A stretch of 42,157 nucleotides of DNA, taken from Burkholderiales bacterium. GTDB taxonomy: Bacteria > Pseudomonadota > Gammaproteobacteria > Burkholderiales > Usitatibacteraceae. The notes under the pieces were generated by a model. It did not search any database, was not told where the DNA came from, and saw only the letters and a list, made by a program, of their open reading frames with translations. Of the stretch, positions 3,877 to 39,994 are shown piece after piece. The DNA is taken from NCBI GenBank assembly GCA_025360815.1, contig JANYBL010000065.1, positions 1 to 42,157 on the forward strand. Reading direction: 5' to 3'. Numbering within the stretch: the first letter of the stretch is position 1; every line of letters begins with the position of its first letter. Made by a program: the position numbers and the translations under genes.

Positions 3877-4668
3877 TCAACGAACAATTCCGCGTTGACT
3901 GGCGGCAAGAAAATCTGATAGCGTTTTTATCTCCGGCAGCATTTCGCCCTCAGCCGCCAATGCGTGCTTTGCTTCGGCGAAGGTTAGGCCAGAGCGATAA
4001 ACGGTTTTGTAAGCCCGTTTGATATTCACGATCTGCTCCGGCGTGTAACCACGCCGCTTCAGGCCCTCAGAATTGATCCCAGCCGCGACGATGGGCTGGC
4101 CACCAACCGTCACATAAGGCGGAATATCCATCAACACCACACTCGACACCCCGCACATTGCGTGCGCGCCGATTTTGACAAACTGATGCACGCCTGTAAA
4201 CCCGCCCAGCGTAGCCCAATCGCCCACAGTCACATGACCAGCTAGCTGAGTGCAATTGGCAATGGTTACGTTGCTGCCGACTTGGCAATCATGCGCGATA
4301 TGAACATAGGCCATGAGCCAGTTATCGTTGCCGATTCTTGTCACACCTTGGTCTTGCACCGTGCCGCGATTAAAGCTGCAATATTCACGGATGGTATTGC
4401 GGTCACCGATGTGAAGTTCCGTCGCCTCACCTTGGTATTTTTTATCCTGATTCGCTTCGCCGAGCGAGACAAAGTGAAAAATACGATTGTCCCGACCGAT
4501 TTTTGTTTGCCCAGTGATCACGCCGTGATGGCCAATCGTCGTGCCCTCATCGATTTCAACAGCGCCATCGATGATCGTGTATGCCCCGACACTTACGGTA
4601 GCGCCCAGCATGGCGCGTGGATCGATAATGGCGGTGGGATGGATCAAGCTCGCTTTTTCCATGGGCAT
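3877..4668 (-). CDS. lpxA: UDP-N-acetylglucosamine acyltransferase
   Basis: LpxA (263 residues) catalyses the first lipid A step, moving a 3-hydroxyacyl chain from ACP to the 3-OH of UDP-GlcNAc. Residues 10-190 show hexapeptide repeats forming a left-handed beta helix; the helical tail begins with GLKRRGYTPEQI around 202-213. The HIAHD motif holds the catalytic His126. By eye, Gly190 aligns with the chain-length-ruler residue Gly173 of E. coli LpxA, suggesting room for a longer acyl chain; this is inference. The ATG at 4668 shares a base with the fabZ stop (TAATG), and 263 residues match the family. A longer reading frame reaching 4710 is unlikely to be translated. Confidence 0.96.
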   Translation of the reverse strand: MPMEKASLIHPTAIIDPRAMLGATVSVGAYTIIDGAVEIDEGTTIGHHGVITGQTKIGRDNRIFHFVSLGEANQDKKYQGEATELHIGDRNTIREYCSFNRGTVQDQGVTRIGNDNWLMAYVHIAHDCQVGSNVTIANCTQLAGHVTVGDWATLGGFTGVHQFVKIGAHAMCGVSSVVLMDIPPYVTVGGQPIVAAGINSEGLKRRGYTPEQIVNIKRAYKTVYRSGLTFAEAKHALAAEGEMLPEIKTLSDFLAASQRGIVR

Positions 4669-5180
4669 TAATCCAGCGTCCGCATCGTACAAAGTAACTC
4701 GGCCTCGCAAGTGAGCTTGCCATCGACGTGCGCCTGCACGGCGAATTTCACAATGCCGCGTTTATTCAGCAAAATTTTGGCCGTCATTGCCAATGTGTCG
4801 CCCGGCACAACGGGGCGCTTGAAGCGGGCGCCATCGATGCCCGCGAGATACACCACGCTCTTGGCATCTGATTTTTGATCGGTACTCTTTAGCGATAGCA
4901 GCGCCGCCGTTTGCGCGAGCGCTTCCACAATCAACACACCGGGCATCACCGCGTAATGCGGGAAATGACCTTGGAAAAACGGCTCGTTACTGCTAACGTT
5001 TTTGATCGCTTTGATGTGCATTCCCGGTGTGAATTCAATCACACGGTCAACCAGCAGAAACGGGTAGCGGTGCGGCAAGTATTGCTTGATCTCATCGCTT
5101 TGCATAATGAACGCCGTCGCCAAGCACGCTGACGGAGACGGCGCACTACTCGTGGATAAAATGGCGTCAGCGTCGTTCAT
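4668..5180 (-). CDS. fabZ: 3-hydroxyacyl-[ACP] dehydratase
   Basis: FabZ (170 residues) dehydrates 3-hydroxyacyl-ACP in fatty acid elongation and competes with LpxA/LpxD for the same substrate, which explains its place between them. The hot-dog domain carries [11 protein letters not shown] (36-46) and the active-site stretch [10 protein letters not shown]...PGVLIVEA with His72 and Glu86. The start at 5180 overlaps the lpxD stop (ATGA) and has a GGAG ribosome site. That adds about 25 residues before the conserved core compared with E. coli. An internal ATG at 5105 would give a protein of usual size, but the coupled start is better supported by context. Confidence 0.95.
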
Positions 5181-6241
5181 TGTGAATCTCCAGATTTTTT
5201 ACGCGTGTTTGTTGCGGCGTTTATTCTCGTTTTCGACACCGCTTTTGACATTGTATCGAGGTTCCGAACATGCACAATATTCTTTAGCCAATCGCGATGT
5301 ACCATATGCGGAATGCCCGAAGTGTAGGTGCCGGGCTCGGTGATTGATTTGGTCACAAACGTTGTCGCCGAGATAATGGCGTGATCGCAGATCGATAAGT
5401 GTCCTACTATCGATACCGCACCCCCGATCATCACGTGGCGGCCAATGTGCGTGCTACCCGCGATGCCCGTACACCCTGAAATCACGGTATGGTCGCCGAT
5501 TGTGCTGTTGTGGCCGACCTGCACTTGATTGTCGATTTTCACGCCACAGCCAATGGTCGTATTGTCAATTGCGCCGCGATCTACCGTAGTATTAGCTCCC
5601 AATTCGCAATCGTCGCCAATAATGACGCGTCCGGTTTGTGGAATTTTAATCCACTCGCCCGCGTTACCGGCAACATCAAAAGCAAAATCAGGCGCAAAAC
5701 CGAAACCGTCAGCACCGATAACGACCCCAGCATGCAACACCGTTCGCGAGCCAATCTGGCAGCCCTCATAGACCACTACCCGCGGCGCCAACACGGCACC
5801 GGCACCAATCACAACATTTTCGCCAATCACGCAACCCGCACCAATACTGGTACCCTCGCCGACGATTGCGCCACGTCCGATAGAAACAAATTCAGCCACC
5901 TCGGCCGTCGCCGCAACCGTCGCGCTCGAATGAATAACCGCACTGGGGTGAATGCCCGAAGATGCCCGCCTGGCGGGGCTAAACAGCTGGGCGACCTTTG
6001 CAAAGTAGGCATAAGGATTCGCGGTGACAATGCGCGGCTTTTCGACTACGTCGCGGTCGTTGCGCCCCACAATCACAGCGCCGGCCGATGAGGATGCCAA
6101 TGCCGCGCGATAACGTGGATTCGCCAAAAACGTAATGTGTTGGATCGAGGCATTTTCGATCGTGCCGACCCCGATCAGCGGCAAACCGGTTTCACCAACG
6201 GCCTCGCCGCCTAGTTTCAAGATGAGATCGCGAAGGTGCAT
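5177..6241 (-). CDS. lpxD: UDP-3-O-(3-hydroxyacyl)glucosamine N-acyltransferase
   Basis: LpxD (354 residues) adds the second 3-hydroxyacyl chain, N-linked at C2, in lipid A synthesis. An N-terminal uridine-binding domain (about 1-95) leads into a long run of hexapeptide repeats (about 98-310). The catalytic His is expected at 244, in the [13 protein letters not shown] segment aligned with E. coli His239. [12 protein letters not shown] marks the conserved end of the helix, followed by a C-terminal alpha-helical tail. It follows skp by 128 bases and is coupled to fabZ through an ATGA overlap. The tail ends with a basic stretch and is slightly longer than in E. coli. Confidence 0.96.
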
Positions 6242-6369
6242 ATTCTATTTATCTGTGCTTTGCGACACGGCAGAACGTCGGAAAATATGACGATAAGAAA
6301 GGTAACGGTCGCTTCTAATGTTTCTTAATATCGCTATTTATCACTAACTATTGACAACGCGGCGCGCGG

Positions 6370-6909
6370 TTATTTGTCGGCCAGTGCCTTGATGACTTTA
6401 TCGGTGATGTCCACACGCGGACTAAAGAAAACAACATCCTGCAAGATAAGGTCGAACTTCTCTTTTTCGGCGATTTCGATGATCACTTTTTGCGCCCGTT
6501 CCTGCAAAGATACAAACTCCTCCTGCTGGCGGAGAGTGAAGTCTTCACGATATTCGCGCTGGATGCGCTGGAAGTCACGCGTGATTTGCGATAGCTGGCG
6601 TTCCTTCACCATACGATCTGATTCGGGCAGTGTTACGGCCTCCTTTTGCAGCGTAATTTCCAAATCACGTCCTTGCTTCTGCAATTTATCAAGATCAGCT
6701 TTGCGGACTGAAAACTCTTTTTCGAGTTTTGCCTGTGAGCGCTTGGCGGGAGCTGATTCACGCACAATCCGTTCGCGATCTACAAAGCCGATTTTGGCAT
6801 CTGTTGCGTTTGCAATCGCCGACGATGACATTGTCCCCGCTGCGAAAAATGCAAACACCGACGCTAACAAGCATGCAAACGTATATTTCGATTTATTCAA
6901 TTGCATCAT
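6370..6909 (-). CDS. skp: OmpH/Skp-family periplasmic chaperone
   Basis: A Skp (OmpH) chaperone of 179 residues that holds unfolded outer-membrane proteins in the periplasm and passes them to the BAM complex. A hydrophobic signal peptide occupies about the first 30 residues, ending near SSSAIA. The mature protein starts with the family pattern KIGFVDRERIVRESAPAKR, followed by a long Lys/Glu/Gln-rich coiled coil. It ends with FDLILQDVVFFSPRVDITDKVIKAL, typical of the family. I chose the ATG at 6909 because it puts the signal peptide at the N-terminus and has a GAGG ribosome site; an in-frame extension to 6990 would bury the signal. It sits just downstream of bamA, as is usual. Confidence 0.92.
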   Translation of the reverse strand: MMQLNKSKYTFACLLASVFAFFAAGTMSSSAIANATDAKIGFVDRERIVRESAPAKRSQAKLEKEFSVRKADLDKLQKQGRDLEITLQKEAVTLPESDRMVKERQLSQITRDFQRIQREYREDFTLRQQEEFVSLQERAQKVIIEIAEKEKFDLILQDVVFFSPRVDITDKVIKALADK

Positions 6910-7069
6910 TTTTGTCGCTGCCGCCTCTATCAGTCGAGTTTCGTTCAGCATCGCTTCAGTACACACTGCTTTTGTCCACATACCGGCCACCTATTTTCTA
7001 AACCATGCGTTTTTGTTGCAAGCTGCAGCTGTAAATGCCAACTATCATAACGAATAGTATAGCGACTCG

Positions 7070-9448
7070 CTAGAATGCGCGCCCCAACAAGAACTGGAAG
7101 CGCTCAACGCGATCGCCAGCCACGGTGTGCAGCGGTTTTGCCAAGCTGAATTTTAACGGTCCCACTGGAGAATACCAGCTCACCGCAACACCATAAGACG
7201 AACGCAAATCCGCAAAGGTGATGCGCTCATTAGCGCCGAACACGTTGCCGGCATCAATGAACGCTGAGAGGCGCACCGATTTATCCGTTTTCACGCCCGG
7301 CATCGGGAATAGCAGCTCCAAATTACTCACGAAACGCTTGGTACCGCCCAGAAACTCGCCGGTTGGGGCAAATCCTAGCGTATCGCGCGGACCAAGTGAA
7401 CTGGCCAAATAACCACGCACCGAATCAACACCGCCCGCGTAAAAATTCTTGAAGAATGGCAGCGGTTTGCCACCATAACCACCTGCGTAGCCCACTTCCA
7501 CATTGGCCGACAACACAATCGGTCCCCAGACAGGACGCAGGTAATTGACCTTACTTTGAAGGCGATAGTATTTAATATCACCGCCCGGCAAGCCCGCTTC
7601 ACCGCCGATTTCAATCAGATAGCCGCGTGATGGGAAATAAATACTGTCGCGTGTATCGCGTGCGTAGCCAAGCGAGCCACGAATTGTCTGGCTCTTGGTG
7701 CCAAATTGATTTTTGTAATCAACATAGCGCTGCGGACTAAATTGATCGATCCCCAAGTTGGTTTGTTCCCAGCCCACACCAAAATTGATCGAGTCGTATT
7801 CCGTGACTGGCACACCGAAGCGCACGCCCACACCGGACGTAGTCGAGCTGAAATTACCGGTAGACAATGTTGCGGTATCCAAAGTGCGATGGAAGACATC
7901 GATGCCACGCGAGATGCCATCTGCTGTCCAATAGGGATCTAAAAACGATACTGAATAAACTTTGCTGACGCGGCTATTGTTCACCTGAAATTGCAACTGA
8001 TTGCCGGTACCAAAAATGTTGGCCTGCGAAACGGAAGCGTTCACACTTAACTTTTCAGATTGTGAAAAGCCAACCCCGAACTGCAAGCTGCCGGTGTTGC
8101 GCTCTTTCACCGTGATATTGATGTCTCGCTGATCTGCTGTGCCGCCGACCGGCGGCGTATCCACCGTGACTTCTTCAAAATAGCCGGTACGTTCTAAGCG
8201 CTCTTTGGAGCGGTTGATTTTATCAATTGAATACCAGCCAGCCTCGAGCTGACGAATCTCGCGGCGCACCACCTCGTCGCGCGTGCGCGAGTTGCCCTGC
8301 ACGTTGATGCGACGCACATAAATCCGCTTGCCCGGATCAACGAACATCGTGAAGGTGGCAGTGCGCTTTTCTTTATCCAACTCGGGAACTGGGTTGATGT
8401 TTGAATCGGAATAGCCGTCGTTACCCAAGCGATCCGTAATCTGCTTCACGGAATCGACAATTCTTTGCCGTGAGAAAGTATCGCCCGCCTTAAACAACAA
8501 GAGGGAACGCATTTCTTCTTCGGGGATTTTTAATTCGCCTTGAAATTTTACACCGGCAATCTTATAAATCGGGCCTTCGGTAATGTTGAGCGTGATAAAG
8601 ATTTTTTCTTTGTCTGGTGTGATCGACACCTGGGTCGAATCAATCGTAAATTCTAAATAGCCACGGTTCAAATAGTAGGAACGCAGTTTTTCCAAATCGC
8701 CCGACAGCTTCTGTTTCGAATACTGATCGTCTTTAGTGAAAAACGAGAACCAGCCGCCAGTGGAAAGCTCGAATTCTTTGAGGATAGTGCTCTCGGATAT
8801 CGCCGATGCGCCGATGATGTTAATGTCAACAATTTTAGAAACATCGCCCTCGTCAATAGTGAACGTGAGTGAAATCCGGTTACGTTCTAATGGCGTAACG
8901 GTTGTGGTGACTTTAGCAGAGTAAAAACCACGGCTGGTGTATTGACGTTTGATTTCTTTTTCGGCGCGATCCAGCAACGAGCGGTCAAAAATTTTAGCCT
9001 CGGAAATGCCCGCTGATTTTAAACCGTCTTTCAAATTGTCTTTGGTGAATTCCTTGGCACCGTTTAAATCAATCTGGGCAATCGCGGGACGCTCGACCAC
9101 AAACACGACAAGCACATCGTTCTCAACCTCCAAACGCACATCCGTGTAAAAACCGGTGGCATAAAGCGCTTTAATTGCGGCAGCCGCTTTGTCATCGTCA
9201 ATCCGTTCGCCGACTTTGATCGGCAAATAGCTGAACACTGTACCGGCTTCGGTACGTTGAATGCCTTCGACCCGGATATCCTTGATGACAAACGGCTGGA
9301 TCGCGAAGGCGGCTATCGAAAACGCCGCGCTGAAAGCAGTAACAGTCGTGACAAAAATTCCGCTCAGCAGCGAGGCGAGTAATTTGGAGGGTGGGCGGGG
9401 ATGTTTGGACAACGATCGTGCTGTTGATGTGGGCAATAAAAAACGCAT
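7070..9448 (-). CDS. bamA: Outer membrane protein assembly factor BamA
   Basis: BamA (792 residues) is the Omp85 core that inserts beta-barrel proteins into the outer membrane. A signal peptide covers about residues 1-49. Five POTRA domains follow (about 50-450), the first opening with FVIKDIRVEGIQRTEAG. The C-terminal 16-stranded barrel includes the conserved loop-6 motif V-R-G-Y in GGVDSVRGYLAS and ends in a terminal Phe (LLGRAF), the usual BAM recognition end. The N-terminal region is a little longer than usual but the start ATG is unambiguous. rseP lies immediately upstream and skp downstream, an outer-membrane quality-control cluster. Confidence 0.97.
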   Translation of the reverse strand: MRFLLPTSTARSLSKHPRPPSKLLASLLSGIFVTTVTAFSAAFSIAAFAIQPFVIKDIRVEGIQRTEAGTVFSYLPIKVGERIDDDKAAAAIKALYATGFYTDVRLEVENDVLVVFVVERPAIAQIDLNGAKEFTKDNLKDGLKSAGISEAKIFDRSLLDRAEKEIKRQYTSRGFYSAKVTTTVTPLERNRISLTFTIDEGDVSKIVDINIIGASAISESTILKEFELSTGGWFSFFTKDDQYSKQKLSGDLEKLRSYYLNRGYLEFTIDSTQVSITPDKEKIFITLNITEGPIYKIAGVKFQGELKIPEEEMRSLLLFKAGDTFSRQRIVDSVKQITDRLGNDGYSDSNINPVPELDKEKRTATFTMFVDPGKRIYVRRINVQGNSRTRDEVVRREIRQLEAGWYSIDKINRSKERLERTGYFEEVTVDTPPVGGTADQRDINITVKERNTGSLQFGVGFSQSEKLSVNASVSQANIFGTGNQLQFQVNNSRVSKVYSVSFLDPYWTADGISRGIDVFHRTLDTATLSTGNFSSTTSGVGVRFGVPVTEYDSINFGVGWEQTNLGIDQFSPQRYVDYKNQFGTKSQTIRGSLGYARDTRDSIYFPSRGYLIEIGGEAGLPGGDIKYYRLQSKVNYLRPVWGPIVLSANVEVGYAGGYGGKPLPFFKNFYAGGVDSVRGYLASSLGPRDTLGFAPTGEFLGGTKRFVSNLELLFPMPGVKTDKSVRLSAFIDAGNVFGANERITFADLRSSYGVAVSWYSPVGPLKFSLAKPLHTVAGDRVERFQFLLGRAF

Positions 9449-17784: not shown

Positions 17785-18360
17785 ATGAAATTTCGACCCA
17801 AAGCGCCAGATATGGAACTTACCGCCCAGCGCTTCGTTTGGATGGTGCTTTGGAGGCTCGCGGTGGCGGCGCTGATTATCAGCGGATTTTTTCGGTTCCG
17901 GGGCACTGACACCATGGCTTTGTTTATGTTGGCAGTTCCGGCGATTGGCGTACTCGCGGCTGGGCCGATCATGATTGTCGTCAGCGCTTGGCTCCACTGG
18001 CAGCGCGGCCAACCCCACCAAAAATGGCAGGGCAATTATTATGAATTTGCGAACATTCAAATTCGCGTTCTTGAAATTCCCAATGACCTACCGGACGAGA
18101 CCGGACAACTCATCCCAACCAAGCTTTGGTTTGTCGATAAAGACGTCCTCAAGGTGCTCGGCAGAAAACCCACACTTCAGCTAAAGGCCATGTTCAAAAC
18201 CACCGACTATCGCGACTTTTCGGATGAAAACGTGTGGGCATTTTCTGAAGTCGGCGTGAAAAAAATACTGATGATCTCGACCCATCCTGAGTCTAAAAAA
18301 ATGATGCTCTGGATTGAGCGCGAGTTGATTAAAGTGCATCGGCGGCGTTTGGAACGTTAA
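17785..18360 (+). CDS. Uncharacterised two-helix membrane protein
   Basis: A 191-residue protein I do not recognise. The first 15 residues are basic and two hydrophobic helices follow (about 21-40 and 47-70). A soluble C-terminal domain of about 120 residues contains a region of alternating hydrophobic residues (RVLEIPNDLP, TKLWFVDKDVLKVLG) and ends in a very basic helix (ELIKVHRRRLER). No enzyme motif is evident. It is divergent from rpsB and the start lies beside the rpsB promoter with no clear ribosome site; an internal ATG at 17812 is an alternative. It is convergent with the cytochrome gene and appears to stand alone. It is probably a real gene because the frame is long and the protein is well composed. 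Confidence 0.65.
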   Translation: MKFRPKAPDMELTAQRFVWMVLWRLAVAALIISGFFRFRGTDTMALFMLAVPAIGVLAAGPIMIVVSAWLHWQRGQPHQKWQGNYYEFANIQIRVLEIPNDLPDETGQLIPTKLWFVDKDVLKVLGRKPTLQLKAMFKTTDYRDFSDENVWAFSEVGVKKILMISTHPESKKMMLWIERELIKVHRRRLER

Positions 18361-18392: not shown

Positions 18393-18857
18393 CTAGCAAG
18401 TTTTAGACCCTGCATTTCGAGCGCGCCGCCCCAACGCAATATGACCCATCAACATCAGCATAAGCGCACTCCCCAACGTCCAATGCGCCCAACTGATAAA
18501 CGGACGCAATTCTTCGCCGCCAATGTAGTAGAGCCCATAGCCCGTTAGCGTAAGTACAATCATGGCAGCAACCATCACAGCACCGGAACCACGATTTTTT
18601 CGATGATGCCATGCACGGCGAATATGGATGGGCATCAGGCTGCCAAAGATAATGAGCGCCGCCATCGCCACCAAGCCGTGCAGCTTCAGCCACCATACTT
18701 CTAGCGGGTGCGGCACTTGACCAAAATCAGTCGTAACGGAAAGGAAATAATGAAAATATAACCAGCCCAATCCTGTCAAGATCAACACACCAAAACACGC
18801 GTAGGTCAGGCGTCGGTGAATAATGCCTAGGCGGTTCGATAACAAGTTTTTATGCAT
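18393..18857 (-). CDS. Small cytochrome b561-like four-helix membrane protein
   Basis: A 154-residue inner-membrane protein with four predicted helices (about 18-38, 57-77, 93-112, 124-142). His60 and His78 bracket helix 2, and His125 and His139 lie at the ends of helix 4. This is the arrangement expected for two stacked b-type haems coordinated between two helices. It resembles the b561/DUF4405-type membrane cytochromes that move electrons between quinol and periplasmic acceptors. It is the last gene of the five-gene cassette, 101 bases after apbE. I infer a role in feeding electrons to the FMN-binding protein of the cassette. Haem binding is inferred from spacing only. Confidence 0.65.
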   Translation of the reverse strand: MHKNLLSNRLGIIHRRLTYACFGVLILTGLGWLYFHYFLSVTTDFGQVPHPLEVWWLKLHGLVAMAALIIFGSLMPIHIRRAWHHRKNRGSGAVMVAAMIVLTLTGYGLYYIGGEELRPFISWAHWTLGSALMLMLMGHIALGRRARNAGSKTC

Positions 18858-18958
18858 GATGAATACGGCAGATATCTAGAAATTACAGAGAGGAATGGCA
18901 GACCCGACAAATAGAACAAAAAAAAGAATCAAAAAGCAAATCCCAAAAGTGAAACTAT

Positions 18959-19981
18959 TCATCGCCGCATCACCTCGCCCGCTGCGTTGATCAGCGCTGC
19001 GCTTGCTTGGTAATGCTGCAAAATATCATGGATTTCGATGCTGTTCGGGTCGCCGAGCCATACTACTTTCGTGAGCGCATCGGCAACGGCGCAGCATGGC
19101 GCAAAAACACTCACTGATTCGAATTTTACGTTACCTTGTGTGCTGCGCCGCACATCAACAAGATGGCTTGGTTTTTCGATTGAATGGCTCCTAACTTCAG
19201 CATTATTTGCGGTATTTAAAAAATAAGTGGCTGTCGTCGCGCAGCTTAGTTCTCGAATAGCAGCAACTGGCATCGCCAAATGTGGCGCACTGGGCACACG
19301 CACGCTGACAACGTGCTCCAAATCGCCAAACACGGCCAGATCACCACCGGCGTTAACGATGCCGCTTACCAGACCACTCGTCGCATCACCCGCTGTTGTG
19401 AACCCTCTGAGCACCTTGATCGCTTGATCGACTGCGTAACCTTTGGCGATGCCGCCTAAATCGATCCAGACTGGCGCCTGAAGACGAAGACGGTCATTTC
19501 CTGCGAGCGCGATACTGCTGTGTAAACTTTGTATTGGCGGTACTGGCAGACACTCTGAGTGTAAGCGCTGCGCATTCAGTTTTTGCACACCAACGCGTCC
19601 CACAATATGGTTTGATGTGCCATTGAAGCTCCCACTTGGCGTCATTGGTCTAGGCAACAAGCCGCGTCGCACCAGCTCGGGCGCTACGGTCGGATTAAAA
19701 ATGCCATTACTCCGCGCTTCGATATCTAATGCCAGCGCCAACGTGTTCCATGTGTCGGCTGCAATCGCAAGAACTTCGCCACGCTTGGCGTTTGCGATAC
19801 GCGATAAATCACTGTCAGGCGCATGAAAACTCATGGCGTTGTGAATCGCCTCAAGGCGAGAGAACGCGGCATCTGTTGCCCGAACAAATGCACTTTCATC
19901 GGTTACGGTTAGTGAGATTTCAACCACCGTACCGAGTAAGGGCTTTGCCCGCTTCAAGGTTTGCAGGTCGCCTCGGTTCAA
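18959..19981 (-). CDS. apbE: FAD:protein FMN transferase (ApbE), cassette copy
   Basis: ApbE (340 residues) attaches FMN from FAD through a phosphoester to Thr in SGAT-type motifs of periplasmic proteins. The family motifs are present: PLLGTVVEISL near 14-24, FNPTVAPELV near 97-106, DLGGIAKGYAVDQA near 171-184, NAGGDLAVFGD near 213-223, and CAVADALTKVV near 303-313, where Asp is the usual metal ligand. No signal peptide or lipobox is obvious, which is unusual as the reaction occurs outside the cytoplasm. The start is TTG at 19981, overlapping the stop of the FMN-binding gene (TTGA), with AGGA upstream. This tight coupling to its probable substrate supports the assignment. Confidence 0.9.
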   Translation of the reverse strand: MNRGDLQTLKRAKPLLGTVVEISLTVTDESAFVRATDAAFSRLEAIHNAMSFHAPDSDLSRIANAKRGEVLAIAADTWNTLALALDIEARSNGIFNPTVAPELVRRGLLPRPMTPSGSFNGTSNHIVGRVGVQKLNAQRLHSECLPVPPIQSLHSSIALAGNDRLRLQAPVWIDLGGIAKGYAVDQAIKVLRGFTTAGDATSGLVSGIVNAGGDLAVFGDLEHVVSVRVPSAPHLAMPVAAIRELSCATTATYFLNTANNAEVRSHSIEKPSHLVDVRRSTQGNVKFESVSVFAPCCAVADALTKVVWLGDPNSIEIHDILQHYQASAALINAAGEVMRR

Positions 19982-20529
19982 AGCTTTCCTAAAAGCTTTA
20001 GTTGGTCTACCACCCTCACAATGCGTCGAACACCATCGGTAATATGGGTAGCACTCATCGTCGCCCCGCTGATGGTAGAAATATCATCACTCACGCGTAA
20101 TTTGCTGGATTTATTTTTGCCAACAAATTGTTTGCGCCATGCCGGCAACCGCACCTCGTAGCCGTGGCTTTCGCGGTAAGCCAAAATTTCGACATTGCGA
20201 ATATTGCCGTCTATCCCAATGCCTACCGCGTAATCAATCAATTCAAATTTGCCGATCACGCTATCAAAAACCACGATACCAATTGCCTTCTCGGCATTGA
20301 ATGCAATCACAGAACGCCAGAGAATGGGCTTATCTGGCAATTCTGATTGTGTCGAGACCGCGCGGCTTTGTTCGGCATTTAGTTGAAACACATTTTCTTT
20401 AAATGTTGTTGCCTCGGGGAACGTGCGCCGCGCCGCTTCGTCCGCGGTGGCGTATTGGCCCGCATAAACATAGACCGGCGTTACGGCCACCAACAAAGTA
20501 GCCGGCAGCCATGTAAGGTTAGATTTCAT
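19978..20529 (-). CDS. Periplasmic FMN-binding domain protein (covalent flavoprotein)
   Basis: A 183-residue exported protein with a signal peptide (about 1-23, ending VYVYAG) and one FMN-binding domain of the RnfG/NqrC/NosR type. Typical family segments are the YRESHGYEVRLPAW...QF stretch near 118-135 and the flavinylation motif S154-G-A-T157, followed by a helix (ITDGVRRIVRVVDQL). Thr157 is the expected FMN attachment site. The Asp that usually lies six residues before it is Ser151 here, with Asp148-Asp149 slightly earlier. The gene is translationally coupled to apbE, its likely modifying enzyme. The domain carries electrons in the periplasm; the acceptor is unknown and ferric iron is my inference. 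Confidence 0.85.
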   Translation of the reverse strand: MKSNLTWLPATLLVAVTPVYVYAGQYATADEAARRTFPEATTFKENVFQLNAEQSRAVSTQSELPDKPILWRSVIAFNAEKAIGIVVFDSVIGKFELIDYAVGIGIDGNIRNVEILAYRESHGYEVRLPAWRKQFVGKNKSSKLRVSDDISTISGATMSATHITDGVRRIVRVVDQLKLLGKL

Positions 20530-20568
20530 TGCATAACCAACAGCATGTTAAAAAATTAGAGCGGAAAT

Positions 20569-20607
20569 AAAATGAAAAATTAAAAATTAAAAATGAAAAA
20601 TTAAAAC
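20569..20607. repeat. A/T-rich imperfect repeat between porin and FMN-binding genes
   Basis: Two copies of ATGAAAAATTAAAA (20572-20585 and 20593-20606) are joined by a related A/T spacer. The run ends at the stop codon of the porin gene. On the minus strand it is a T-rich tract, which could reduce transcription past the porin or lie as an unstructured RNA upstream of the FMN-binding gene. No protein-binding consensus is recognised. Confidence 0.6.
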
Positions 20608-21941
20608 GAAAAACCCAAACCTAAATTTAAGCGGTCAGAATCTTTCGCAATTTTGTTTTTCTGATAGTCTGCCTTCAATACCACCGTCGGCGCAATATTG
20701 AAGTTAACACCGTAAGTTAAAATCGATTCGGTATCATAGGCATTCACATTCAGCCCCGCCACCACGCCATCAAAACTTCGCCCCGTGTTGATCTGCTCAT
20801 AACGAACAAACGGAGACAATACATAGTCTCCGTCCAGGCGCTGCTTATAAGCCGCTTGGCCATACCAGCCGCCAAATGATTTCGGCACCAAATAGGGCGC
20901 ACCAGCAAAAGTTGTATTCAACGCACCGGCACCGGAAATAGTACCGCGGGCATAAACTGCCGCGAAATCCCATGCGCCGGGCGTCCACTGCACATGCATG
21001 TCGGCTAGTGTGGTGCGCGCGTTTACAGCCGCGAAACCTTTATTGCCATGCCCCGCTTTCCCTGACGTAAACCCTGCACCAATACGCAAACCCGGCATGC
21101 CGCGCCAGTCAGCAGCGGCAAAGAACGATAAATCTTTAGATTTGGCGAGTTGCCCCTCTTGATGCAGGGTACGTAGCGGTGATTCCACACCTTCGGCATT
21201 GAGCGGATCCCACTTGGTTAAATCAAATCCGGTCGTGATGCCCATGCTCCACGAAACACCATTATCGTGCTCTCCAAATAGCTGCACACCCGCTTCGCGC
21301 AAGGTAGACGGAATGATTGATGTTTCAACAGTCGGACGATTTACACCATAAAAAGTATGGGGCTCATGGTTTTGGTTAATCAACCCAAGCGGAATCAAAA
21401 ACAAGCCAGCGCGTGCGCCAACGGTATCATTTAGCCGATGCTCAACATAGGCCTGCTCAACGGCTACTTCACCGTTGTCGGTCGAGGAAGTCACGGCATG
21501 TTCTACTTCAAGCTCGGCTACCACTTTGGTTTTTGCATCAAAACGATGTTGGAAACCCAGCACAAAGCGCGCTACATCGGCTTGAGTAGACGATGTATCG
21601 GTTCGAGGTCGGGTGTAGTTAATTTCGCCGTAAGCGGTCAGTTGAGTAGGGGATGAGAATGGAGTCGAAGATAAAGGTACGGATGCGGATGGTGATGGTG
21701 AGGCTGCCACCGGAACCGGCAAAGCATCCTGCTTTTGCTTCATTTGTTTTAGCTCGGCCTTCACCCGGTCGAGCTCCGCAGCGAGCTGTTCCAATCGATT
21801 CAACAGCTTAGTTTCAGCCGTTTGGATAGCAGGGGAAGATTGTCCAAACGCTTCGCCAGGCGCGGCGTTTAAGGCAATTGCTGTTAGCACTGCAGCCACG
21901 GATGACGCTATTTTTTTAGGGGCTGATGGAATCGAGTTCAT
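20601..21941 (-). CDS. Outer membrane porin, OprO/OprP-like
   Basis: A 446-residue outer-membrane protein. A signal peptide covers about 1-33 (ending EAFGQ). A short heptad-rich coiled coil (about 40-70, LLNRLEQLAAELDRVKAELKQMK) may mediate trimer packing, and a Pro/Ser/Ala linker follows. The barrel begins with LTAYGEINYTRP and ends in Phe (LGLGFSF), the usual C-terminal signal for BAM. Segments such as RFDAKTKVVAELEVEHA and RAGLFLIPLG resemble the phosphate-selective porin O/P group, but the substrate cannot be inferred. The start at 21941 was chosen to place the signal peptide first; a longer frame to 22145 overlaps the neighbour. It is gene 2 of the cassette. Confidence 0.82.
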   Translation of the reverse strand: MNSIPSAPKKIASSVAAVLTAIALNAAPGEAFGQSSPAIQTAETKLLNRLEQLAAELDRVKAELKQMKQKQDALPVPVAASPSPSASVPLSSTPFSSPTQLTAYGEINYTRPRTDTSSTQADVARFVLGFQHRFDAKTKVVAELEVEHAVTSSTDNGEVAVEQAYVEHRLNDTVGARAGLFLIPLGLINQNHEPHTFYGVNRPTVETSIIPSTLREAGVQLFGEHDNGVSWSMGITTGFDLTKWDPLNAEGVESPLRTLHQEGQLAKSKDLSFFAAADWRGMPGLRIGAGFTSGKAGHGNKGFAAVNARTTLADMHVQWTPGAWDFAAVYARGTISGAGALNTTFAGAPYLVPKSFGGWYGQAAYKQRLDGDYVLSPFVRYEQINTGRSFDGVVAGLNVNAYDTESILTYGVNFNIAPTVVLKADYQKNKIAKDSDRLNLGLGFSF

Positions 21942-22032
21942 TTTTTTGACGCCTGTATTTGTAGAATGAGTGAAATGGGGTGGATGAAGCGATAAGGCTA
22001 GAAGACGTTTTAATTGCACAATATGAGATGAC

Positions 22033-23403
22033 TCACGCGCGATCACCGATATAGCGTAGAGACCCAAACAACCCCGCCGTTTCGCCTTCAGTGCCGGCAG
22101 CAAAATAAAGCGCATTTGTATCACCAAGGCTTGCGCCATTGCCAAATATGAGACCCCAAGTACCGTCTAAACCAATGACATCACCAAGCGGGCCGCGCAT
22201 GTAGTCGATAAAGCGGCCTGTCGTTTGATTAAACGCCGCGATTTTGCCCGCACCGCCGAAGTTGCCAACCAACAACATATTAGATAACAAACCAAAATTA
22301 GCGGGCGCAATGGCAACACCCCAAGGTGCATTCAGTCTGCCAAGATCCTCATAGATTCGCAGCAACTCGCCTTTCAAGTTATATTCAACCAGCTTGCCGC
22401 GATGAGGAAAGCTCCCTGTTTTGGCTTCAGCAGCAGTATCGATTGAGTCTTCTGAAGACGCTAAAAATTGCCGCGCATCGATGATAAAACCTTGTTCGTT
22501 ACGCAATACGCTGCTAATCGCATACATAACAAAAACACGGCCATTGGCGACCTGAATATTGAACGGCACTGGCTCGCCGGGGCGCGGCTTGTTGCCTAGA
22601 CTGGGGTTTGTTTCATCGCGTAAATCTCCCGTGGCGAAAGGGTTGATAAAACCTTGCGTGGGCACAAGCTCCCATTGGCTATTGAATTGGCGAATTTGCG
22701 GATCAATCCCAAAATCAGCAGTCCACATGACATCCCACGTATCGGTTTTAACCGCAACGCCAAAAAACGACATGCCTTGATTACTGCCATCAAATACAAG
22801 CTGCGATGGGCCATTAACACGCACGGTGCCACCATCGGAGGCACGATCCGTCCAAGCAGAAATGATCCCAGAATCGGTGACAAAAATGAACTTGGCCGAG
22901 CCGCTGAAAGAAACACGTTGCCCGTTCACCAATGCCGTTTGTTGGCTAACCAAAAACGAGTCAGCGGTAATCGCCGCGCCATTAAACGCGGTACCCGTCA
23001 CTTTGCCTAAGCTATTGGTGGTACTTAATGCGTCAGCCCCAGGAATATAAACCTCGGCTAAGCCGTCTTGAAATAACGTTCGCAAATTAACATTCGGCGA
23101 TGCCGTGACGTCGCCGACGAATTGATAGGAGGTTCCGCCCGCTGTGACCCAAAAATGGCCGCCTGCGCCTGCCGGTCGAATTGCAATTCCCCAAGCATCA
23201 ACCATGCCTTCGAAGGTATATTTTGCGCCATACGCTGTTTTACTCGCTGCCAGATTGGTTTGCGTATAAGCATTGCGCGTTTTCATCAACGGCACCACGC
23301 TTCGGGCTGCCTGGCTAACGGCTGGGAAATTGGCCCCTAATGCGCCCGCGCCCATGGACAACAGAAATTGCCGGCGCTTTAATTTGATTGTTTTTGTCGT
23401 CAT
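22033..23403 (-). CDS. Tat-exported TIGR03118-like beta-propeller-type protein
   Basis: A 456-residue protein whose N-terminus carries a twin-arginine signal: K-R-R-Q-F-L-L, a hydrophobic stretch GAGALGANF, then SQA. The mature part has repeated motifs such as AWGIAIRPAGAGGHFWVTAGGTS, APWGVAIAPANFG and LDGTWGLIFGNG. These match the pattern of the TIGR03118 family of unknown function and suggest an NHL-like propeller with several G-W-G-x-A repeats. Tat export hints at folding or cofactor loading in the cytoplasm. I chose the ATG at 23403 because AAGG sits 7 bases upstream; an ATG at 23409 is in frame. It is the first gene of the cassette, directly behind a Fur-like operator. Its function is unknown. 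Confidence 0.75.
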   Translation of the reverse strand: MTTKTIKLKRRQFLLSMGAGALGANFPAVSQAARSVVPLMKTRNAYTQTNLAASKTAYGAKYTFEGMVDAWGIAIRPAGAGGHFWVTAGGTSYQFVGDVTASPNVNLRTLFQDGLAEVYIPGADALSTTNSLGKVTGTAFNGAAITADSFLVSQQTALVNGQRVSFSGSAKFIFVTDSGIISAWTDRASDGGTVRVNGPSQLVFDGSNQGMSFFGVAVKTDTWDVMWTADFGIDPQIRQFNSQWELVPTQGFINPFATGDLRDETNPSLGNKPRPGEPVPFNIQVANGRVFVMYAISSVLRNEQGFIIDARQFLASSEDSIDTAAEAKTGSFPHRGKLVEYNLKGELLRIYEDLGRLNAPWGVAIAPANFGLLSNMLLVGNFGGAGKIAAFNQTTGRFIDYMRGPLGDVIGLDGTWGLIFGNGASLGDTNALYFAAGTEGETAGLFGSLRYIGDRA

Positions 23404-23416
23404 GGCCATACCTTAA

Positions 23417-23431
23417 TAAGAATAATTATCA
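23417..23431 (-). promoter_or_regulatory. Fur-like operator of the FMN/porin cassette
   Basis: Plus-strand TAAGAAT-A-ATTATCA, a 7-1-7 arrangement of the Fur type. Read on the minus strand, 14 of 19 positions match the classical Fur consensus in a by-eye alignment. It spans the predicted transcription start and leaves only 13 bases to the start codon, a position suited to repression. The left half-site is identical to that of the feoA operator. Confidence 0.65.
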
Positions 23432-23433
23432 TT

Positions 23434-23462
23434 AAGATATAGATTTAACGTTTAGCTGTCAA
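23434..23462 (-). promoter_or_regulatory. Predicted sigma70 promoter of the FMN/porin cassette
   Basis: Minus-strand TTGACA (23462-23457, perfect -35), a 17-base spacer and TATCTT (23439-23434, four of six for -10). The start site would be near 23427, inside the Fur-like operator. The resulting leader is only about 24 bases. Confidence 0.65.
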
Positions 23463-30250: not shown

Positions 30251-32143
30251 CTAGGTGCCGGCCATCGCTAGCGCGACGCGGTAGGTGATGAACGAGGCTA
30301 CATATGCCAAGCCAAACAAATACGCGGCCATGAGGACCGGATATTTCCAGCCATTAGTTTCACGTTTAACAGCGCTCAATGTGGCCACGCATTGCGGTGC
30401 AAACACGTACCATGCGAGCAGTGATAGCGCAGTGGGCAAACTCCAGCTATTTGCGATGATGGGTGTGAGCTCGGTCGCGAGCGCATCGCCTGTTTGTGAG
30501 ATCGCATAAACCGTGCCCAATGCGCCAACGGCAACCTCGCGCGCCGCCAAACCTGGAACAAGCGCGATGCAAATTTGCCAGTTGAAGCCAATCGGCGCGA
30601 AGATTACTTCCAAGCCACGTCCCATAATCCCCGCCAGACTGTAGTAGATCGCGGGGTGGGTTGCGCCTTCGGGTGCGCCGGGGAAGCTCGATAAAAACCA
30701 AAGCAAGATCATGAGCGACAAAATAATCGTACCGACCCGCATGAGAAAAATCTTTACCCGCTCCCATAACCCAAGCATGAGATTTTGCAGATGCGGCCAA
30801 TGGTAATCGGGCAGTTCCAACATCAACGCTTGATGCACTTTGCGGCCCGCAAACCATTTGAATGCGTAAGCCACAGCCATGGCCGACACGATCCCCGCCA
30901 CGTAGAGCACGAACAACACCACACCCTGCAAATTAAAAATATGCCATACCGTTTTATCGGGAATAAATGCCGCGATGATCAGCGCATAAACCGGAAGCCG
31001 CGCAGAGCACGTCATGAGGGGCGCGATCATGATCGTCGCCAGCCGGTCTCGCGGATTCTGGATTGTGCGCGTTGCCATGATGCCCGGAATCGCGCAGGCA
31101 AAGCTGGATAACAGTGGAATAAATGCGCGGCCAGACAAACCAACCCTTCCCATCAGGTGATCCAGCAAAAACGCGGCGCGGGGCAAATAGCCGGAATCCT
31201 CCAGCGCCAAAATAAAGAAAAACAAAATCAAAATCTGCGGCAAAAAAACCAGTACTGCACCCACGCCACCCAGCATGCCATCGACCAGCAAACTGTTGAG
31301 CATACCCGGTGGCAACGTGGAGCCGATCAGCGCAGCCACCCATTCAACGCCGTATTTGATCGTATCCATAGGCCATTTTGCCCAACTAAACACGGCCTGA
31401 AACACGCAGAACATCAACACCGCCAATATGACAATTCCCCACACCGGGTGCAGCACAATGGCATCAATTTTTTCGGTCGCGCGGTGGATTTTTTTGGTGT
31501 CCGCTGATTCCTCGACGCAAAGCGTCAACAGCCTGCGAACTTCTTGTTGCGTGTCAGCCAATGCATTGGATGATTCAGCAATCGCGCTGGGAATATGGTT
31601 TGCGACGAGTGTTGCCTCATCAATTTGATCAAGCGCCGCCACGAGGTTTGCTTCGCCGCCATTGCGAACCGCTACCGTCGCGACCACCGGTACGCCGATT
31701 TCGCAGCTTAATTTTTCGCGATCAATGTTGATACCGCGTTTAGCAGCGACATCGCTCATGTTGAGCGCGATCACCATCGGTTTGCCGAGGCGTTTCAATT
31801 CCAGCGCCATCCGTAAATTAAGCCGCAAATTGGTGGCGTCCACCACGCAGACAATGCCTGCGGGCGTGGCTTCATCCGGACGCAATCCATACACCACATC
31901 GCGGGTAATGGCCTCATCTGGCGTGGTCGCCACCAGGCTATAGGCACCGGGCAGATCGAGCACTTGCCAAGTGCGGCCTCCGGGCGAGGTAAAGCTACCC
32001 TCTTTGCGTTCGACGGTGACACCCGCGTAATTGGCGACTTTCTGGCGTGCGCCAGTAAGACGGTTGAACAGTGCGGTCTTACCGCAGTTCGGGTTACCGA
32101 CTAAGGCGATTAGAGAAATCAAAGATGGTGCGGGAGCATTCAT
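30251..32143 (-). CDS. feoB: Ferrous iron transport protein B
   Basis: FeoB (630 residues) imports Fe(II) across the inner membrane, controlled by an N-terminal G domain. G1 GNPNCGKT is at 16-23, followed by the switch region ANYAGVTVERKEG, G3 DLPGAYS and G4 NMSD. The membrane part shows two Gate-type regions, including GLSGRAFIPLLSSFACAIPGIMATRTI and a C-terminal partner with VAALSAVKRETN-like sequence. It is shorter than the roughly 770-residue E. coli protein, mainly in the linker and C-terminus, but similar to other betaproteobacterial FeoBs. feoA precedes it and a Cys-rich partner follows. Confidence 0.95.
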   Translation of the reverse strand: MNAPAPSLISLIALVGNPNCGKTALFNRLTGARQKVANYAGVTVERKEGSFTSPGGRTWQVLDLPGAYSLVATTPDEAITRDVVYGLRPDEATPAGIVCVVDATNLRLNLRMALELKRLGKPMVIALNMSDVAAKRGINIDREKLSCEIGVPVVATVAVRNGGEANLVAALDQIDEATLVANHIPSAIAESSNALADTQQEVRRLLTLCVEESADTKKIHRATEKIDAIVLHPVWGIVILAVLMFCVFQAVFSWAKWPMDTIKYGVEWVAALIGSTLPPGMLNSLLVDGMLGGVGAVLVFLPQILILFFFILALEDSGYLPRAAFLLDHLMGRVGLSGRAFIPLLSSFACAIPGIMATRTIQNPRDRLATIMIAPLMTCSARLPVYALIIAAFIPDKTVWHIFNLQGVVLFVLYVAGIVSAMAVAYAFKWFAGRKVHQALMLELPDYHWPHLQNLMLGLWERVKIFLMRVGTIILSLMILLWFLSSFPGAPEGATHPAIYYSLAGIMGRGLEVIFAPIGFNWQICIALVPGLAAREVAVGALGTVYAISQTGDALATELTPIIANSWSLPTALSLLAWYVFAPQCVATLSAVKRETNGWKYPVLMAAYLFGLAYVASFITYRVALAMAGT

Positions 32144-32194: not shown

Positions 32195-32497
32195 TTAGGC
32201 GGGTCGCAGCGTGACGGCGATTTGCGCCGCTTCGAATCGCCGCAACGCAAAAGTGCTGCTGCCGTGACCGTGCTGCGCATCGCCAATTCGTACCGCAATC
32301 GGCTCGCCTGACCAAAACCCTTTGGCCAAGATGGTCACGGATTCACCATTGACAAAGCCAAGCTCCATCAAGCGGCGCGAATAATCTGTGCCGCCTTCTT
32401 CCACATGGGCAGCCACATGCGTGACGATGGCCGATTGGCCTTTGCGCAATTGATCGAGGGTCAGTTTGGGTGCAGCTTTTTGAGAGCCAGATTTCAC
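32195..32497 (-). CDS. feoA: Ferrous iron transport protein A
   Basis: FeoA is a small cytosolic SH3-like protein needed for FeoB function. The core runs from LTLDQLRKGQSAIVTHV through SRRLMELGFVNGESVTIL to IAVRIGD and FALRRFEAAQIAV, the full family pattern. The frame has no ATG. I prefer the GTG at 32497, which gives 100 residues; a GTG at 32563 would give 122, and the frame stays open to about 32641. None has a clear ribosome site. It is the first gene of the feo operon, 51 bases ahead of feoB, with a long repeat-containing leader. Confidence 0.88.
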   Translation of the reverse strand: MKSGSQKAAPKLTLDQLRKGQSAIVTHVAAHVEEGGTDYSRRLMELGFVNGESVTILAKGFWSGEPIAVRIGDAQHGHGSSTFALRRFEAAQIAVTLRPA

Positions 32498-32560
32498 GGT
32501 TGAGCCACGTTGATAAAGACGGTTGGGATAATTTTGATGTACTGTCGGACAATGATGCCG

Positions 32561-32576
32561 CACTGCTGCAGCAGTG
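32561..32576. repeat. 16-bp perfect palindrome in the feoA leader
   Basis: CACTGCTGCAGCAGTG, a perfect palindrome with no spacer, at the downstream end of the tandem-repeat block and overlapping the alternative GTG start of feoA. It could be a dimeric-protein site or a short RNA hairpin. No regulator is recognised from it. Confidence 0.6.
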
Positions 32577-32667: not shown

Positions 32668-32696
32668 ATAATATCCTTAATGACAATTATTCGCAA
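32668..32696 (-). promoter_or_regulatory. Predicted sigma70 promoter of feoAB
   Basis: Minus-strand TTGCGA (32696-32691), a 17-base spacer and TATTAT (32673-32668). The start would be near 32661, at the edge of the Fur-like operator. The leader to the preferred GTG start is about 165 bases. Confidence 0.55.
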
Positions 32697-38916: not shown

Positions 38917-39831
38917 CTATGGGTTGTGGATTAGTCGTTCAATTCTGCCGCCAGCAGCATCGACGGCCAAATAGCGGGCCCCGCATTGGGCGAGCCATTC
39001 TGCACCCTTATTTCCCTCGTGGAGCATCGCAATCGTCGAAATACTCCCCGCCACCAGACAGCTCGGCGCGAACACTGTCACGCTCTGCAAACCATGCACC
39101 GATTCGCCTGTCTTGGGATTCAGGATGTGGGAATGTCGCCGACCCGCAAAATCAATGAACCGCTCGTAATCACCACTGGTGGCGACAGCGCCTGAGGCAA
39201 TTGGAAACGTGGCGAGTAAGGCGTTTTCATCGCGCGGATGGCGAATACCAAGCTGCCAAGGCTCGCCGTTGGCGTGTGGGCCTGTCACCACCACATCGCC
39301 ACCCAAATTCACGAAACCATGACGAATGCCGTAAGACAGCAACACCGCCGCAGCTCGATCCGCGGCGTATTCTTTGCCGAAGCCGCCAAAATCGATCTCC
39401 ATGCCGGTTTTCGGGAGGAAGATGGTTTGTTTTTGCGCAATTACTGTGCGCTCGACCGAGTGCCAAGCGATCAAAGGCAGCAGCGGCGCGACAGCATCAG
39501 CACTCGGTGGCCGATCTAATTTGAAGTTCCAAACGCGCCGCAAAACCCCCGATGTGATGTCAAATCGCCGATCTGATTGCTGATAGCAAATATCGGCAAA
39601 GTCAAGCAACTGCGCAGTCTCTGGGTCGATCTCGATTTTTTCAAAACCTGCAGCGCGATTGATTTTTGTGATGACGCTGTCAGCTTGATAGCGGGAATAT
39701 TTCGCTTCGATCCGCTTCACTTCAGCAATCGCTACGGCGGCTGCACGGTCGGCCGCCTCGTGCGATTCGGCATATAGCTCGATGATGTTTTCGCCGGCCA
39801 TCGCGCGAAAGTGGTGGATGGTGTGTTGCAT
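38917..39831 (-). CDS. apbE: FAD:protein FMN transferase-like protein (second ApbE)
   Basis: A second ApbE-family protein (304 residues from the ATG at 39831; a TTG at 39867 is also in frame). It has FRAMAGENIIELYA near the N-terminus, FDITSGVLRRVW near 91-102, EIDFGGFGKEYAADRAA near 146-162, and NLGGDVVVTG near 179-188. The C-terminal motif reads V-A-G-S-I-S-T where typical ApbE has A-D-A-x-x-T, so the metal-binding Asp appears to be Gly. It may belong to a variant subfamily. There is no signal peptide and no FMN-binding target gene beside it. It differs clearly from the cassette copy. Confidence 0.82.
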   Translation of the reverse strand: MQHTIHHFRAMAGENIIELYAESHEAADRAAAVAIAEVKRIEAKYSRYQADSVITKINRAAGFEKIEIDPETAQLLDFADICYQQSDRRFDITSGVLRRVWNFKLDRPPSADAVAPLLPLIAWHSVERTVIAQKQTIFLPKTGMEIDFGGFGKEYAADRAAAVLLSYGIRHGFVNLGGDVVVTGPHANGEPWQLGIRHPRDENALLATFPIASGAVATSGDYERFIDFAGRRHSHILNPKTGESVHGLQSVTVFAPSCLVAGSISTIAMLHEGNKGAEWLAQCGARYLAVDAAGGRIERLIHNP

Positions 39832-39994
39832 GAACTGAGCGTAACTTATTATTAAAACAGTTTGCAAATCAGTGTGGTCATCAAAGCACCCTAGTCTAGG
39901 TTGCGACGCCGCCTGAACGACGTCAAACGCGAGCTATACCTCTTGGAACGCCCCGCCGGTGCTAGAGTCTGGTGATTGTTATAAAAGCAAACAA

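Follow-up and report, generated by a model that had tools for sequence, protein, structure and literature searches.

A candidate Fur-controlled flavin and haem electron-transfer cassette near feoAB in a Burkholderiales genome

Flavin-based electron transfer outside the cytoplasm has been described with NapH, MsrQ, PepSY, DsbD and Nqr/Rnf-type membrane partners, and flavinylation clusters have been tied to iron (PMC8238504). The set was extended by the DUF4405 cytochromes (PMC11334425). The DUF2271, DUF4198 and ApbE genes of Caulobacter were reported among its iron-responsive, Fur-regulated genes (PMC3751524), and the flavin mononucleotide (FMN)-binding protein SifE is mentioned in a study of iron uptake in Bifidobacterium (PMC5449479). 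The present analysis concerns contig JANYBL010000065.1 of a Burkholderiales bacterium (Usitatibacteraceae; assembly GCA_025360815.1), the whole 42,157 nucleotides of which are called the window, and a cassette of five co-directional genes within it. The cassette was found to contain, from 5′ to 3′, genes for a TIGR03118 protein, a porin-like barrel, an FMN_bind protein, the flavin transferase ApbE and a b561-like cytochrome. An earlier note made from the sequence had read it as a Fur-controlled route of electrons to Fe(III), producing Fe(II) for FeoAB. No description of this gene set was found by a literature search that covered TIGR03118 and DUF6662 as well and mostly did not reach subscription journals, and neither PMC8238504 nor PMC11334425 uses the term b561 in its main text.

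The iron link of the cassette, as predicted from sequence, is well supported because Fur-like sites, feoAB and ferritin-type neighbours and an exact co-occurrence with feoB in the genus were found. That the cassette is a Fur-controlled electron branch for iron assimilation is judged somewhat likelier to be right than wrong. Under iron limitation, the five genes would be derepressed together with feoAB, both of which have a visible upstream site, and quinol, the presumed donor, would reduce the cytochrome, whose conserved ligands suggest two bis-His haems that would carry electrons across the inner membrane. The electrons would then pass to the periplasmic FMN protein, which bears the flavinylation motif and would be modified by ApbE, probably in the cytoplasm before its export. 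The FMN would reduce Fe(III) or an Fe(III) chelate, followed by entry of Fe(II) through FeoB. The barrel is probably a passage or docking site for small iron complexes, and the gene product encoded before the porin, TIGR03118 here or a di-haem MauG/BthA-like lipoprotein in relatives, may serve as an exchangeable outer partner.

Promoters and iron-linked neighbours

All five genes were found on the same strand with their families assigned by profile search, the cytochrome and the porin falling below cut-off. The gaps were 91 bases between the TIGR03118 and porin genes, 71 between the porin and FMN genes and 101 between the ApbE and cytochrome genes, and the stop of the FMN gene and the TTG start of the ApbE gene were found to overlap by four bases (TTGA). 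The earlier note had listed this arrangement and overlap, together with an SGAT motif, two His pairs in the cytochrome and a Fur-like operator at the promoter, and each of them was recovered.

The 19-base operator, CTTAATGATAATTATTCTT, shares three bases with the -10 hexamer of a sigma-70-like promoter, promoter-like matches as a class being not above chance in the window (7 against 6.9). Scored against what we take to be the E. coli Fur consensus, the best match in the cassette promoter was 14 of 19, which was reached in 1.8% of intergenic shuffles (2.7% in a second run). A motif derived from relatives gives the stronger evidence. It was built from the sites of 17 relatives with the window excluded (one, L017, of the same genus). 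Of the 22 sites outside the window, five were set aside, four as identical copies and L122 because it did not resemble the others. Since likeness to the E. coli consensus had guided the choice of sites, a Fur-like motif was bound to result; the independent part is the ranking in the window, where the site about 110 bases upstream of the feoA open reading frame (ORF) came first (18.7) and the cassette site second (18.5) over all positions, the maximum in 30 simulated windows being 16.7. By sequence, a Fur box is present at the promoter, and Fur binding and a response to iron are predicted.

The FMN profile (alignment A1) was matched by 69 of 399 Burkholderiales genomes at E<=1e-10. Relatives were compared in a table of 79 loci. 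It excludes L024-L026 as weak paralogues, L032-L034 because they share their genomes with L015-L017, and two fragments at contig edges in genome G245. For the promoters the window was added to make 80 and L015, L046, L081 and L110 were left out as too short. A best Fur-like site at p<=0.05 was found in 23 of the 76 (3.8 expected), and at p<=0.01 in 15, although the promoter, feoB-distance and co-occurrence statistics ignore kinship and several of the 23 come from one genus, so that the effective number is smaller. All 23 were found among the 49 clusters led by a cytochrome c peroxidase (CCP)-type, porin, DUF6662 or TIGR03118 gene (Fisher 4e-6), 18 of them in nine coded families and the other five in named records. 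The window and L017 passed within the genus and L016 (p 0.27) failed, as did L036 (p 0.52) outside it.

The feoB match of the window was found 9.8 kb from the FMN match on the same contig. Co-occurrence with feoAB had been proposed as a check in the earlier note. The FMN protein, TIGR03118 and feoB (E<=1e-60) were found in the same four of 13 genus genomes (Fisher 0.0014), feoB at this threshold being found in none of the nine genomes without the cassette, including three of at least 99% completeness. For the wider counts, nine of the 69 genomes of the order, with weak FMN matches only (E above 1e-50), were dropped; feoB lay within 12.1 kb of the cassette in six of the remaining 60 genomes against 0.5 expected, and in 4 of 58 when the own genus was excluded (Poisson p 0.0017). 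At E<=1e-60, feoB was present in 48 of the 60 against 169 of the 339 others. In genome G007, a 5′ fragment of TIGR03118 and feoB share a contig and are no more than about 2.9 kb apart. Roseateles saccharophilus DSM 654 and Pelomonas aquatica have a cassette in the order di-haem, porin, FMN, ApbE and b561, with feoB next to it. A feoB, ferritin-type or VIT1 gene was found in 15 of the 79 loci, with ferritin-type genes in nine and VIT1 in one, the latter two counts being given without a background rate. The most telling was L036, from a Rhizobacter metagenome-assembled genome, which contained a ferritin match and a BFD-like ferredoxin (PF04324), followed by TIGR03118, porin, FMN, ApbE and b561 genes and then by feoA and feoB.

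The cytochrome, the FMN protein and the flavin transferase

The window cytochrome scored 28.4 bits against Ni_hydr_CYTB/b561 (PF01292), just below the cut-off of 30.1, and was also below cut-off for DUF4405 (14.5 against 26.7 bits). Its four His residues were invariant in all 65 aligned cytochromes, the window included, and His36 was present in 61; four hydrophobic segments were found in 62 and three in the other 3. Segment two was flanked by His60 and His78, followed by the presence of His125 and His139 in or before segment four. If the N and C termini are cytoplasmic, as positive charges suggest, His60/His125 would bind the outer haem and His78/His139 the inner haem. The anatomy is of the two-haem transmembrane conduit type, the four invariant His residues support a b561-like arrangement, and electron transfer is the predicted function. 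Of the 16 members of alignment A3, five gave a weak match to DUF4405 (E<=0.01) and four a match to b561, and a PDB search with the cytochrome profile found nothing at E<=1. Records of Ideonella and Methylocystis list the product as a hypothetical protein, and the Bradyrhizobium gene in the same position is annotated likewise.

The FMN protein was the sole FMN_bind match of its genome at E<=0.001 and contained the flavinylation motif ISGATMS (alignment A1). Among 78 FMN homologues the motif [ST]GA[TS]-x-[ST] was canonical in 69, one carried an SSAT variant and eight were not matched by the pattern. Export was assessed by a mean hydropathy of at least 1.6 over 14 residues, a threshold of the analyst's choice, and 17 of 78 FMN ORFs and one of 65 ApbE were left out because they contained no anchor motif for placing the N-terminus. 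The threshold was reached near the N-terminus by 51 of 61 FMN proteins (1.85 in the window protein), and before the LGT motif by none of 64 ApbE proteins (highest 1.52), although an exported ApbE is usual, if not universal, in ApbE-dependent flavin electron-transfer systems. The window ApbE starts almost directly at the conserved RAKPLLGT segment. Two ApbE matches were found in the genome, both in the window, and the second (Table 1), in a genome with one FMN_bind match only, did not exceed a hydropathy of 1.07 over the first 40 residues and had no apparent signal peptide.

Cytosolic ApbEs are known, one of them serving a fumarate reductase that is soluble (PMC12052999). Either the FMN would be attached before export, or ApbE would leave the cytoplasm by an unrecognised route. 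Because neither ApbE of the genome has a signal peptide, ApbE probably acts in the cytoplasm before the FMN protein is exported. An FMN_bind protein of L047 (9929-10489) was found to contain the twin-arginine N-terminus NRRQSLQR, which would suit export after modification; the other complete FMN N-termini in the alignment looked Sec-type by inspection.

Table 1. Features of the cassette and its surroundings in the window
Feature	Position	Strand	Basis
Cassette of five co-directional genes	18393-23409	-	ORF list and family searches
b561-like cytochrome, four hydrophobic segments, His60/78/125/139	18393..18857	-	Profile match below cut-off, and alignment
ApbE flavin transferase, TTG start, without signal peptide	18959..19981	-	PF02424, 112.8 bits against cut-off 25.6
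FMN_bind protein, Sec-type signal peptide by inspection	19978..20529	-	PF04205, 36.5 bits against cut-off 22
Porin-like outer-membrane barrel, 446 amino acids from ATG at 21941	20601..21941	-	Signal peptide by inspection
TIGR03118-family protein, 458 amino acids	22033..23409	-	NCBIfam TIGR03118, 204.4 bits against cut-off 79.95
Fur-like operator	23418..23436	-	Motif from relatives and consensus match
Sigma-70-like promoter, TTGACA-17-TATCTT	23434..23462	-	Sequence match
feoB	30251..32143	-	TIGR00437 over cut-off
feoA, start uncertain	32195..32563	-	ORF resembling L016 FeoA, which matches PF04023
Fur-like site upstream of feoA	32676..32694	+	Top-ranked by relative-derived motif
Second ApbE	38917-39867	-	241 bits
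Small membrane-type gene	17785-18360	+	By inspection; no Pfam match over cut-off

Spread, outer partners and rival readings

The FMN, ApbE and b561 genes were found together in 63 of the 79 loci, and these three genes are the portable core. TIGR03118 was found over cut-off in 8 of the 399 Burkholderiales genomes and lay on the contig of the FMN gene only in two genomes of the own genus; the five-gene set was therefore rejected as a general arrangement. A cassette led by TIGR03118 was found in the window, in three genomes of the same genus and in L036, and in no other examined locus. The earlier note had proposed a search for conservation of the five-gene order; the exact set of five proved lineage-restricted, and the core consists of three genes. 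The TIGR03118 relatives in L032, L033, L034 (open part) and L036 were 71-81% identical. The window protein contained a twin-arginine translocation (Tat)-like signal, KRRQFLL, by inspection, with the Pfam TAT_signal match below cut-off (12.7 against 22.7 bits), and a PDB sequence search with it found nothing convincing (best E 0.53). In L017 (genome G005, 4461-7308), TIGR03118 contained an in-frame TAG and matched only from residue 152 on, and the FMN protein contained SSAT in place of SGAT; this cassette is perhaps a decaying copy.

The window cassette was flanked by a small plus-strand gene, which lies between rpsB and the cassette, and by map on the other side. The small gene was found near map in 8 of 10 other genus genomes with a map match, seven of these also with rpsB in view, and none of the ten had a cassette gene within the 1.5 kb flanking map on that side. 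The cassette was located after glnD in G004 and on another contig in G005. Its genomic place thus differs while its gene order is kept, which marks it as an accessory block.

A porin-family gene was found in 33 of the 79 loci; the window porin was below the Porin_O_P cut-off (14.1 against 20.9 bits) and its L041 homologue passed (38.3). An upstream barrel cluster with a DUF6662-matching representative was found in 27 loci, and L083, L084, L085, L088, L093 and L100 contained two barrels, with DUF6662 before the triad and the porin after it. Outside the order, plasmids of Methylocystis heyeri and Bradyrhizobium contained an FMN protein and an FMN transferase, followed by a hypothetical protein in the place of the cytochrome, which gave a b561 match below cut-off in Methylocystis and no Pfam match in Bradyrhizobium. 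The order in Ideonella dechloratans was CCP, barrel, FMN, ApbE and a cytochrome-type protein. With porin, DUF6662, CCP, TIGR03118 or no detected partner beside the core, the module could be a general flavin and haem shuttle for several periplasmic acceptors, iron-regulated in some lineages within a wider iron-saving response. Yet the conserved cytochrome itself requires haem, and the adjacency of feoB would stay unexplained, so this reading is considered quite unlikely.

A MauG/BthA-like di-haem CCP match was found before the porin in 17 of the 79 loci, always with a porin, two of the matches (L035 and L123) being partial; TIGR03118 occupies the same place in the genus of the window. Sixteen clustered CCP proteins all contained a lipobox pattern, 15 contained two CXXCH motifs and 11 had DGY at the C-terminus; the partial L123 was the one without CXXCH. 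The L040 protein had its best PDB match at E 9.6e-74, nearest to 6nx0 and 6v59, which we take to be BthA. One haem of MauG and BthA has Tyr-His ligation, and BthA is an efficient peroxidase whose physiological role was described as not established (PMC6405878). On this evidence, the cytochrome and FMN protein could instead feed a di-haem peroxidase in the envelope for quinol-driven removal of peroxide, with TIGR03118 as another acceptor in the genus and with iron-linked induction because Fenton damage and iron uptake coincide. However, no CCP gene was found in the window cassette or in the 27 DUF6662-cluster loci, the single CCP_MauG match of the genome lies on another contig and is 25-28% identical to three cassette CCPs, and the feoB adjacency is not directly explained. 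A peroxide branch, including such induction, is held to be rather improbable.

Several observations weigh against iron assimilation as the function. The peroxidase-like gene stood before the porin in 17 of 33 porin clusters, roughly every second one, which suggests a peroxide role. A b561 match was absent from 12 of the 79 loci, and four more had b561 and no ApbE match. A signal-less ApbE clashes with periplasmic flavinylation, while the FMN protein carries a signal peptide; this point had not been raised in the earlier note. No feoB was found at E<=1e-30 in 10 of the 60 cassette genomes, and barrel and feoB presence were not associated (37 of 43 against 13 of 17, p 0.45; lists of barrel loci and feoB-less genomes compiled by hand), so that a preference of barrel clusters for feoB genomes was unsupported. 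Relatives are not independent, and the p values therefore overstate. No Fur-like site at p<=0.05 was found in 26 of the 49 barrel-, di-haem- or TIGR03118-led clusters, nor in any of the 27 led by FMN or b561 genes (near-misses L104 at 0.057 and L095 at 0.077). On the Methylocystis heyeri plasmid (L162), the FMN, ApbE and cytochrome-type genes were found between multicopper oxidases and a ferritin-like gene. The quinol donor, the Fe(III) acceptor and the covalent FMN are, moreover, what we infer from sequence.

Fur sites missing from homologous clusters had been named beforehand as a finding against the iron reading; the sites were present in 23 of the 49 clusters whose first gene encodes a barrel, di-haem or TIGR03118 protein and in none of those that begin with FMN or b561, and because of the latter not every homologous cluster need be an iron system. 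This absence, together with the multicopper oxidase neighbours, would agree with the reduction of another metal or substrate, for example Cu(II), with iron-type control in some lineages only. Against it stand the iron genes and Fur-like sites that recur in Burkholderiales and the exact pairing of cassette and feoB in the genus, and it is regarded as improbable to about the same degree as the general shuttle. Of the iron-reduction reading, then, the iron link and the two-haem conduit anatomy have stood, whereas the quinol, the Fe(III) and the roles of the porin and of the propeller proposed in the earlier note are kept as conjecture.

Relation to known systems

A broader proposal, tentative and rather unlikely, is that Fur-controlled iron reductases of a distinct class are widespread in Burkholderiales and occur outside the order too. 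Such a reductase would combine a mini four-helix two-haem cytochrome with an FMN protein that a signal-less ApbE flavinylates in the cytoplasm, so that it is exported with its cofactor; an outer-membrane barrel would take the chemistry outward, and the interchangeable outer partner would be either a BthA-like di-haem lipoprotein or a Tat-exported TIGR03118 protein that spares haem. As for the cassette itself, it would add another membrane module to the flavin-based iron reductases. It offers a testable function for TIGR03118, DUF6662 and the small cytochrome, and BthA-like di-haem peroxidases may find a context in its relatives. Its ApbE, having no signal peptide, also leads one to ask whether an FMN-bearing protein can be exported once it has been modified.

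The Burkholderia BthA/BthB system resembles the relatives in that a CCP_MauG-type gene precedes the porin in 17 of the 33 porin clusters, but it is absent from the window, and the published neighbour of bthA is a phosphatase (PMC6405878). RnfG and NqrC likewise contain an FMN_bind domain with an SGAT-type motif and were the nearest solved sequence relatives in the PDB. The window FMN protein reached 20.7 bits, well under the rnfG cut-off of 102; with this score and with no other Rnf/Nqr subunit among the Pfam matches of the cassette, an Rnf/Nqr fragment was rejected. The PepSY/DUF2271/DUF4198/ApbE systems likewise rely on ApbE for an electron transfer that is linked to iron and Fur (PMC8238504). 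Identity with the PepSY system was rejected, there being no PepSY, DUF2271 or DUF4198 match among the five window proteins. The DUF4405-like flavinylation-associated cytochromes (PMC11334425) are alike in being small, apbE-linked membrane cytochromes with four conserved His. That class is six-helix, whereas four hydrophobic segments were found here and the window copy is nearer to b561, and its published clusters contain Flavodoxin_4 and a flavin transporter where FMN_bind and an outer-membrane barrel are present in this cassette. The cassette can be read as a variant of the known flavin-based extracytosolic electron transfer.

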